Positions 1 through 60,206 of a stretch of DNA of 64,000 bases are shown one piece after another. Both the position numbers and the translations under genes were made by a program. The stretch is from Asterochloris sp. CNOR1 (lineage: Eukaryota; Chlorophyta; Trebouxiophyceae; Trebouxiales; Trebouxiaceae), in contig OZ017762.1 in the NCBI GenBank assembly GCA_963969365.1, positions 248,001-312,000 of the forward strand, given 5' to 3'. The stretch's first letter is position 1. Each line of letters begins with the position of its first letter. Under the pieces are notes generated by a model. It saw only the letters and a program-made list of their open reading frames with translations, was not told the DNA's origin and did no database searches.

Positions 1-720
1 GAGGCAGCAGCAGAGCAGGCAACAAAGCCCAAAAGAGAACAGTTCAGGGGAATGAATGCTCCTCAGGAGCTGTTCAAGCTATGCACCAGTCTACCACTTG
101 CTGCAGAGTGCTCTGCTATCCTGCAGGAAACATCAAGGTAAACGATGGTCAGCTGCAAGCCGTAGCAGCCCCTCGCACCGTCCCTCAAGGCTCTGAAGCC
201 AGCTCTTACTTTGTTGTAATTGTTTGCTCTGCAGGCAGCAGCAGGGCAGGCAAATTGGCATCTCACTAAACAGGAACTGGATCGCAGGCAGGCAACAGCA
301 CATCAGGGTTCTCAAGCTGTTCCTCGCTCGTTACTCAGTGGTGTTTGTACTGTTCTGTGATGAGTTGCCCTGCAGGGAGTCTGCAAGAAAGGCAGTGTGA
401 CCCCTTCTGAGAGTATGCACCCCAGATGAGAGACACAGGTTTCAGGCATCCCATAGCCCCTAATGCTCTGCAGCAGTCCCCACTTAATGTATTGGCTCTG
501 TTGCTCTGCAGGAAGCAGCAGGGCAGGCAGCATGGCACTTCATGAGGAAGGTCCAGGGCTGCAGGCAGTCCACAGCCCCTCAAGCTCTGCAGCGGTGTCC
601 CAGTCGCCGTGGGAAGACCTGTCCCTATCAGATAGCATTGCCCCCCTGCAGGAGAGCAGCCATGCTGATCCGTTGCGACCCAGCAGCAGCGCAGGCAAGG
701 TTCCTGCTCTCATGCGTGCG
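1..720 (+). repeat. Imperfect ~250-bp tandem units at the window's left edge
   Basis: A block built around CTGCAGGCAGCAGCAGGGCA recurs at about 1-30, 231-260 and 508-535. Each time it is followed by related sequence containing CTCAAGCT and TCCTCGCTC/TCCC-like words. The last copy runs into an open stretch (540-720) that could be an exon of the HEAT protein gene. The arrangement matches the exon-edge ladders seen elsewhere, but which copy, if any, is coding is not clear. Confidence 0.5.
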
Positions 721-57915: not shown

Positions 57916-60206
57916 TCATCCTGACTTGAACAAGAGCACTGCCACCTGGCCTGCACACGGCAAGAGAAAGCAGCAGTCAGCTGCAGGCAGACTGGTGACC
58001 AGTGCAGCCACGTTCGATGTGCTGACAGCACTCACCAAGGTAGAAGTAGATGAAGTGCTTTGTCTCATGTGTCACGTAGGAGCCTGCAGTTCAGGAGAAA
58101 GCACAGCTGAGGGGCAGCTCTGCGCCATGGTCGCCGGTGTGAAGCCATGACCGCAAGAGCAGTGGCTCAACAACCTGCAATGTGGGCAGGCTGGTCACAC
58201 CATTGGGCTGATTCCTGCCCCCCACAATGCAGTGCTACAACATATGCATGTGAATTCCGGCAATAGGCCCGCTGAGATGATGCAGCCAGGTGAGATTGCG
58301 ACACACTTGAATGTATGCCACAGCTGCAGCGTAGCTGCTCTGCACTGCAGAGCCGAGCTGGGGCCGCCTGCCAGGGAGCTGTGCAGCACTGGCTGGGCAA
58401 GGTCTCACCAAAGTTACGCCCCACGATGCAGTGCCACGTGGGGTTATACTTGCGGTCAAACTCCTTCTTGATGAAGGCTGCAATGTCCTTCTCGATGTTG
58501 TACTTCTCCAGTGCCTGCACCAGACATGACATTGCCTTGAAGTGGTTGTGTAGAGACGAGCTGCTTGCCATTGTGCCTTCTCGAGTGCCAATACCAGAGA
58601 TAGGAGGCATACTAAGACTGGTCGTGGCACACTGGTGGCAGAGCCATGATAGCCACAGACAGCACGCAGTGGGTTCTTGATGTGTGCCTGCACCTGAGAT
58701 GGCAAACAGGTCAGGGCATGACAGCTGCAGGCTGCACCGGACACCCTGGAAGGGTTCAACCGGCTTGAGATGGGCGGCCTAGAGCAGCCAAGACAGGCAG
58801 TGGTCACCTGAAACTGGTGGCCAGGCACCAGCAGGCGACAGGCAGCAACAGCACAAACACATTTGTCACACAGCAGGCACCTCGAATGGGAGGTCAGGCG
58901 CCAATAGGCTGCAGACAGTAACCCCTTGAGGCCTGCCATACATGGCTGGACCCCAGACAACTTCCAGAGATGGCATGATGGGCTCCATGCAGCAGGCAAT
59001 GCAGGGTTGCTGCAGAGTCTGCCCTGTGCATGGCCAGACCACGAGCAGACACCAGGACAAAGTGATGGGCTGCATGCCAGCACTGATGCAGAATTGCTGC
59101 ATAGGCCGCCCAACACCTTGGCAGACATCGACGCAGCATGATGGCCGCAGACAAGCTTTGATGCAGGGTCACTGCACAGGCTGCCAAGTGCATAACAAGT
59201 CACCAAGGTGAGAACCGAACAGCACAGCTGCAGCGCTCAAATGTAGGCAGTCAACATGCAGCCCAGCCTGAGTGCAGGCAGTGCACCTGGCTCTGCTGCA
59301 GTACAGCACACAGGCAGCCTGTGAGAGGAGCCCTGTGAGAGGTGCACCATTGAGCCCAGCACACAACTCAGAGAGGACAAGAGCTATGCAGAATTTGGCT
59401 TGGCCATGTGGGCCAGGAGCCACAGCTGTGGCTGCAGCTCACCTGTGTGGCGCAGTCGATTGCCTCCTGCTGCATGTCCTCGCCTGTACAGCAGTGAGGG
59501 GCTGGCTTGAGCAACATCTACAGGCTGATGTGAACCGCAGCGACAAGCCCATCTGGGGGCATTTTGGCTACGTGCCAGCCACCCAGCTGCAGATGTCTAT
59601 CTGGCCTTTCTCCGCAGTGCCAGATGGCGATGATATCCCTGCTGAACAGGGGTTAGCAATGCGTACACAGTGCTGCTCTGGTGTCTTTTAGCTGAACTGG
59701 CTGCAAAGGCAAGGGCCTTGAGTCCCTGACACAGCGCAGGTAGTAGCCAGCGCAGCTGCCTGAACTGGGTCATGCTGCCCAGATGCACCAGACAGAGTGA
59801 TGCACACATGAGGTGCTGAGAGTGTGGAAGAGGCAGGTGCAGCATGCTGCAGGCTGGTGCAAGTGGTTGGCCTGAGGGGTGGCTAGGTGCATGCTCCAGG
59901 GCTGCTGCAGGGGAGTGTGCACAGGAGGTGCAGCTTTGAGGAAGTTTAAGATGCGTCAGGCCAGGTGCGGCATGCTTACAGGCTGCTGCAGGAGGATGCG
60001 CACAAGCAGGGCAGTGGCTGAGGGAGGTGCAGAGTGTGAGGGCGTTCCAGAGGGCCAAATGCAGCATGCTCCAAGCTGCTGCAGTGTGGTTGGTGGGGTG
60101 CTGGGGTAGCACAGGCTGCTGCAGGAATGGGCTCCTTACAAGGTGCAGCGTGCGATCAGCACTCACTCATGTCTGCATTCTTGATGACCGCCTTGCGCTC
60201 CGACAT
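57916..60206 (-). CDS. Dynein light chain LC8 (89 aa, 5 exons)
   Basis: A dimeric hub protein that binds dynein intermediate chains and many other partners. Exons: 60167-60206 ([13 protein letters not shown]), 59443-59483 ([13 protein letters not shown]), 58409-58514 ([34 protein letters not shown]), 58036-58083 ([15 protein letters not shown]) and 57916-57950 ([10 protein letters not shown], stop TGA). The lengths sum to 270 nt with all phases consistent, giving exactly the canonical 89 residues. The sequence is close to animal DYNLL1 throughout, including the beta-strand [13 protein letters not shown] and [10 protein letters not shown] that make the ligand groove. Its role here could be flagellar, cytoplasmic dynein or dynein-independent; the window does not say. 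Introns 1 and 2 contain tandem repeats. Confidence 0.96.
58920..59200 (-). repeat. Tandem ~75-100-bp units in LC8 intron 2
   Basis: ATGATGGGCTCCATGCAGCA / GTGATGGGCTGCATGCCAGC / CAGCATGATGGCCGCAGAC with intervening CAATGCAGGGTTGCTGC / TGATGCAGAATTGCTGC / TTGATGCAGGGTCACTGC give three diverged units. No exon of LC8 is related to them. Confidence 0.65.
59825..60130 (-). repeat. Tandem ~70-85-bp units in LC8 intron 1
   Basis: A motif AGGTGC(A/G)GCATGCT...GGCTGCTGCAGG recurs at about 59836, 59887, 59960 and 60056, with companion words GTGCACAGGAGGTGCAG / GCGCACAAGCAGGGCAG. The units are imperfect and fill most of this end of the intron, next to exon 1. Confidence 0.7.

Follow-up and report, generated by a model that had tools for sequence, protein, structure and literature searches.

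Decayed copies of exon edges in Asterochloris introns suggest an old wave of short tandem duplications

Many introns of Asterochloris sp. CNOR1 carry decayed direct copies of the edge of an adjoining exon, here called ghosts, with copies of an exon start lying upstream of that exon and copies of an exon end downstream. The reading we favour, and consider probable, is an old wave of short tandem duplications with near-random placement, selection inside exons and asymmetric decay, which together left a border-concentrated record. Such a wave would have hit the genome with offsets mostly of about 80-300 bp, a more or less random placement and on the order of one event per intron. Duplications entirely within a coding exon would have been purged by selection, and border-spanning ones would have survived where splicing stayed with the copy adjoining the exon body; the outer copy would then have turned into intron, lengthened it and decayed neutrally, presumably skipped in the mRNA. 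With a coding copy that hardly changes, exon-ghost pairs would stay recognisable longer than intron-intron pairs, and for this reason the visible record would be concentrated at exon borders.

The DNA examined (the window, 64,000 nucleotides) belongs to a genome of 56.4 Mb in 18 large and 3 small contigs; for Asterochloris glomerata, the available text of Armaleo et al. 2019 (PMC6652019) gives 56 Mb and a mean of nine introns per gene. Three window genes were modelled by spliced alignment, giving 46 introns whose donors are mostly AG/GT and whose acceptors are mostly CTGCAG. The EF-G gene (5216-14166, minus strand; 16 exons, 15 introns) was modelled on P0001 with 710/710 residues identical, and this best-matching reference protein bears the source label jgi/Astpho2, which we take to be the JGI code for Asterochloris sp. 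Cgr/DA1pho. The malate synthase gene (19826-27026, minus strand; 12 exons, 11 introns) was modelled on P0241 (426/534 identical), with the first protein residues unaligned, so that the true start may be slightly further upstream. The beta-COP gene (45685-57752, plus strand; 21 exons, 20 introns) follows the Trebouxia protein P0122 (764/954 identical). Phase 0 prevails in EF-G (14 of the 15 introns), and malate synthase ends at its C-terminus in SRL (19826-20011, minus strand), presumably resembling a peroxisomal targeting signal.

The window was chosen by an earlier reader, so its rates are biased upward, and an independent set of 14 genes picked by Pfam family gives the fairer estimate. This set comprises 7 of about 12 chaperonin loci, 3 of about 12 HSP70 loci and 4 of 8 EF-Tu-family loci, modelled from Pfam hit coordinates; synthetase matches and loci L027-L029 were left out, and 64 of 79 candidate introns were resolved, the other 15 being set aside. 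Two bacterial model references were discarded: E. coli GroEL matched none of the loci, and E. coli DnaK matched HSP70 loci only.

When the window was compared with itself by BLAST (E ≤ 10), 72 same-strand pairs proved to lie within 1 kb and 21 farther apart. Of the 30 pairs on opposite strands, nine lay within 25 bp (hairpin- or palindrome-like) and one more within 1 kb. The same was seen elsewhere in 18 samples of 10 kb, taken from every large contig at bases 500001-510000 (one of these, L017, overlaps the HSP70 locus L037): 88 same-strand pairs within 1.5 kb, spread over 15 of the 18 loci, against seven opposite-strand pairs over all distances, low-complexity pairs having been removed on the same strand and kept on the opposite one. 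Markov-simulated versions of nine sampled loci yielded no same-strand pair within 1.5 kb. The copies therefore bear the hallmark of short tandem duplication, namely a shared orientation, close spacing and greater numbers than distant or inverted pairs. In the best-preserved arrays the alignment is at least as long as the offset (offset/length 135/162, 136/175 and 109/134), and shorter pieces are unable to show head-to-tail adjacency. Repeat bases are patchy in the window, with 0 in 14200-17100 and 39 in 41400-45100, against 499 of the 585 bases in 45100-45684. The last stretch holds a direct-duplication array (45148-45670, no strand assigned; 68-75% identity) that adjoins the beta-COP start codon upstream and has no copy in a modelled exon.

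EF-G, malate synthase and beta-COP contain 41 pairs with an offset of at most 1.5 kb. Of these, 28 meet an exon border and have the expected polarity; in five more, the exonic copy is internal to its exon and closer to the predicted border than to the other; the remaining eight pair intron with intron, and no pair is exonic in both members. Every exon-involving pair in this offset range uses the adjacent intron (33/33). Two pairs with larger offsets do not fit, one intron-intron in EF-G and one in beta-COP with a copy in exon 4 (E = 0.035), and both look like chance. Polarity itself rests on exon-edge tests, and the count of part identities, whose 'wrong' class is impossible by construction, was not used for it. 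When 50-bp edges were taken from exons of 100 bp or more in all 17 genes, matches were found on the right side in 35/144 tests and on the wrong side in 2/144 (Fisher p = 1.2e-9). We also scanned 60-bp exon edges against the adjacent intron with exon edges of other genes as the null, calling strict those matches above 99.9% of it. Strict right-side matches numbered 16/128 in the independent set and 21/92 in the window, and strict wrong-side ones 1/70 and 1/56, respectively; at the 99% threshold the wrong side gave 4/126.

Counted per intron, ghosts (p < 0.01 per side) occur in 38/110 introns and 13/17 genes: 19/46 introns in the window and 19/64 in the independent set rise, on one side or both, above a 1% null made for each of them, where chance would give about 2/110. 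Introns with a ghost are longer than those without (median 579 against 392 bp, p = 1.7e-4), and under this per-intron null the frequency is 25/43 at 500 bp or more, 8/43 at 300-500 bp and 5/24 in shorter introns. The greater length of ghost-bearing introns fits intron lengthening and falls short of proving it.

The earlier note on this DNA had reported serial, decaying copies of exon borders in introns of several window genes. This is borne out by the gene models and, for IF-3, SF1 and HEAT, by five inspected examples with exons set by eye. Its rule of polarity stands as a direction and fails as an 'always', given the few wrong-side matches (2/144, or 4/126 at the 99% threshold). Serial ladders, with two or more copies, are seen at some borders, and single copies at others. 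The pattern extends beyond one region, the 13 genes with ghosts being on many contigs.

Ghosts in EF-G and malate synthase, both on the minus strand, illustrate the range. Three copies lie downstream of the EF-G exon 15 end (5584-5830), at 5830-5789, 5712-5634 and 5600-5584 with 81%, 84% and 100% identity over 42, 78 and 17 bp, and one lies upstream of the exon 12 start (8204-8266; 79%, offset 87). Malate synthase exon 11 is flanked on both sides, by a ladder upstream of its start (20736-20969; offsets 135, 162 and 299; 79% over 162 bp and 84% over 43 bp) and by a ghost downstream of its end that has kept the donor motif (20267-20320; 89%, offset 153). So is exon 10, with a ladder upstream of its start (21657-22001; 73-88%) and ghosts downstream of its end (21160-21338; 71% over 175 bp, 85% over 40 bp). 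Single ghosts were mapped upstream of the exon 7 start (24283-24321; 85%, offset 314) and downstream of the exon 5 end (24894-24934; 78%, offset 112).

On the plus strand, beta-COP has ghosts upstream of the starts of exon 6 (48556-48769; 78% and 71%), exon 7 (49019-49166; 84% and 83%) and exon 14 (53144-53254; 88% and 91%). Downstream of exon ends they follow exon 11 (51590-51631; 79%, offset 124), exon 16 (54650-54992, as two copies at 54650-54688 and 54951-54992 with 80% and 84%) and exon 20 (57231-57315; 76%, with 80 coding bases). The examples with exons placed by eye include a ghost upstream of an IF-3 exon start (28973-29048, minus strand; 73%), whose coding copy at 28885-28810 was inspected in translation. 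Downstream of an exon end in the SF1/RRM gene (38020-38106, plus strand; 72%), a ghost covers some 17 bases of the exon together with the beginning of the intron next to it; its coding copy begins at 37911, and its donor scores 9.9 against 10.9 for that copy. Upstream of an SF1-gene exon start (40047-40100, plus strand; 84%), the acceptor of the ghost scores 15.8 against 13.1 in the coding copy. A ghost array also lies upstream of the HEAT-gene exon start near 4144 (3986-4109, plus strand; 74%, offset 99).

Ghosts run past the border into intron sequence in 11/17 acceptor-side and 4/14 donor-side cases (p < 0.05, with a null unmatched for the splice motif CTGCAG), and so the copied template was unspliced. 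Together with the polarity, the invariable use of the adjacent intron and the wear of the intron parts, this supports the earlier proposal that tandem duplication across a splice border left an outer copy decaying within the intron. That introns were built specifically from exon edges is not upheld: duplications are also found between intron segments and outside modelled genes, as in the array before beta-COP, and the border excess is due, at least in part, to pairs with one coding copy being lost more slowly.

The wave looks old, as 106 of 118 pairs (at least 35 aligned columns; pairs inside one array are not independent) have identities of 70-90%, 49 of them 80-90%, and only three reach 90% or more. 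Under a steady process young copies would be expected to be no fewer than old ones, so the wave would have slowed. Mismatches are spread nearly evenly over codon positions (16.5, 14.7 and 18.1%), which means that the coding copy has barely moved and the intronic copy carries almost all of the change. GC3 is 0.78-0.83 against an intron GC of 0.56, which suggests that synonymous sites are constrained. Estimates of ghost divergence disagree: part identities give 0.15-0.20, the share of exon-only pairs (29, against 22 with both exon and intron parts) gives about 0.24, and placement ratios give 0.25-0.30.

This disagreement bears on whether placement was random. A simulated burst with random placement, ghost divergence of 0.25-0.30, an indel rate of 0.12 and about one event per intron gave ratios of exon-edge to interior matches of 1.4-4.0 and of exon-edge to intron-end matches of 2.5-9.2; unit length, indel rate and intron length were our choices. 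The observed ratios are 1.6 and 2.5 in the window and 4.0 and 4.9 in the independent set. Age has a strong effect on the simulated exon-edge to interior ratio, which climbs from 0.40 at g = 0.12 to 11 at g = 0.35, so this agreement is a fit and not a prediction, and at g = 0.20 random placement gives only 0.86 against the observed 1.6 and 4.0. The ghosts detected also resemble their exons more closely (mean 0.844 in the window, 0.856 in the independent set) than those of any placement simulation (0.81-0.83). Asymmetric decay thus accounts for part of the border excess, and a residual few-fold border bias is possible, because random placement fits only at a divergence of 0.25-0.30, above the identity-based 0.15-0.24. 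We regard it as rather unlikely, if worth keeping in view, that a past genome-wide wave was truly border-biased, lengthening a large share of introns before it slowed and leaving exons as a dating reference. Such a wave would have left cryptic splice sites behind, some predicted to be stronger than the true ones.

Direct targeting of duplication to exon borders, for example by transcription- or splicing-linked breaks, so that introns grew preferentially from exon edges, seems to us distinctly unlikely. It would account for the 28 of 41 pairs that touch a border, against 6.0 expected when the aligned segments are placed at random, and for an identity-based divergence too low for random placement to yield the observed border ratio. 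The expectation of 6.0 is, however, too low, aligned segments being shorter than the true units, and this null, which ignores true unit length, was dropped as the main one and replaced by the simulations. Moreover, 60-bp intron ends, which a duplication spanning the border would have to copy as well, match the remainder of their intron no more often than interiors do (strict matches 3/118 against 10/324 in the independent set and 7/78 against 35/240 in the window, with interiors scanned on both sides and ends on one), and arrays with no modelled coding copy exist, such as that at 45148-45670.

Some ghosts carry predicted splice sites of normal strength. Sites no weaker than the tenth percentile of real ones were predicted in 7/17 acceptor and 4/14 donor ghosts, compared with about 3% of random positions in introns; in 5 of the 31 mapped ghosts the predicted score equals or beats that of their own real site. 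The proposal that splice motifs are kept in the copies is thus true of 11/31 ghosts and overstated for the remaining 20/31, which lack a site of normal strength. The enrichment could be read as selective retention of ghosts as alternative or decoy splice sites. We think this improbable: copying a site and then letting it decay gives the same picture, the majority without a normal-strength site argues against it, and so do mismatches that are even over codon positions.

Error-prone synthesis, giving copies already divergent at birth, would explain the missing young copies, with just 3/118 pairs at least 90% identical, and would need no old wave. It predicts equal divergence in the exon and intron parts of a pair (simulated ratio 0.90-1.01), but identity is 493/604 (81.6%) in exon parts and 736/970 (75.9%) in intron parts, a divergence ratio of 1.31, which falls within the 1.16-1.46 simulated for neutral decay beside a constrained coding copy. 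Birth-divergent duplication was rejected on this ratio and is, in our judgement, very improbable. A C-to-T hypermutation induced by duplication was also considered and left no signature (C>T plus G>A make up 88/279 changes, and transversions 145).

Birth of the introns from an exon segment with AGGT that was duplicated in tandem shares the local direct geometry and the CAG/GT common to donor and acceptor borders at many introns, yet it is scarcely credible here, as it predicts a donor-border to acceptor-border similarity within one intron that is absent (0/62 pairs overlap both exons, and 0/110 introns exceed the 99% null in direct donor-acceptor comparison; the exon-exon class of pairs is no test, this model having no aligned column that is exonic in both copies), and very old births would have decayed beyond detection.

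That tandem duplication can create introns is an established model, judging from the available text of PMC4974935 and PMC3488318. The accessible part of PMC4974935, on the potato RdRp case, cites Rogers 1989 and Gao and Lynch 2009 on intron gain by duplication; in potato a 3' splice region was copied, and the gene also has an 83-bp duplication inside an intron. As in potato, tandem duplication of exon-intron structure supplies intron sequence in Asterochloris, but here introns appear to have been lengthened, long ago and in many genes, and the border-to-border signature is wanting in all 62 pairs and 110 introns. Small tandem duplications are known to arise in break repair (PMC8355091, available text). 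These too are short direct copies set head to tail, and break repair could plausibly be the origin here. The events of that study are fresh ones in mammalian cells, whereas identities of 70-90% in most Asterochloris pairs mean blurred junctions, too worn for a repair mechanism to be read. Introner elements, as the accessible text of PMC9860276 presents them, similarly bring lineage-specific mass change of introns, but no family is common to distant places in the window, where similarity beyond 10 kb (E ≤ 0.01) amounts to one same-strand and one opposite-strand pair.

Tandem exon duplication with mutually exclusive exons also places direct copies beside an exon. The Asterochloris copies differ in being exon edges only, a copy reaching both exon ends in 0/41 pairs of the three window genes, and in that 20/31 mapped ghosts have no normal splice site. 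Our literature search found no title or abstract opening describing the exon-edge ghost pattern, which is a weak test, as subscription papers fell mostly outside it. Armaleo et al. 2019 (PMC6652019) never use 'tandem' in the available main text, and in the Trebouxia genome paper (PMC12712428) the terms 'intron' and 'tandem' are found in the reference list only. The known model concerns intron gain; the Asterochloris case looks like intron lengthening, in many genes, old, and readable through the exon copy. Intron growth is otherwise hard to see because copies within introns are soon lost. Where an exon edge is under constraint, one copy stays legible, so that each border serves as a record of earlier duplications and gives their direction and approximate age. 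In intron-rich genomes it thus becomes possible to measure how often, when and where tandem duplications took place. Border copies also show how cryptic splice sites arise beside true ones.

We finally note some peculiar repeats. The sole pair above 95% identity counted in the 18 sampled loci is at L020:545-744, with an offset of 68, an aligned length of 133 and about three copies. At 61876-62918 of the window, direct repeats have an offset of about 790 bp, beyond the usual 80-300 bp. A 27-bp tandem repeat in the SF1 region (40846-40916, plus strand) reads GYGPPAGFP and is a coding duplication with the frame kept. Two long reading frames on the plus strand, 41984-42448 and 62364-63113, both contain stretches such as QQEWDHA and IAPxSxxKAWW, which we take to be similar to zinc-ribbon repeats in proteins of algae and giant viruses.
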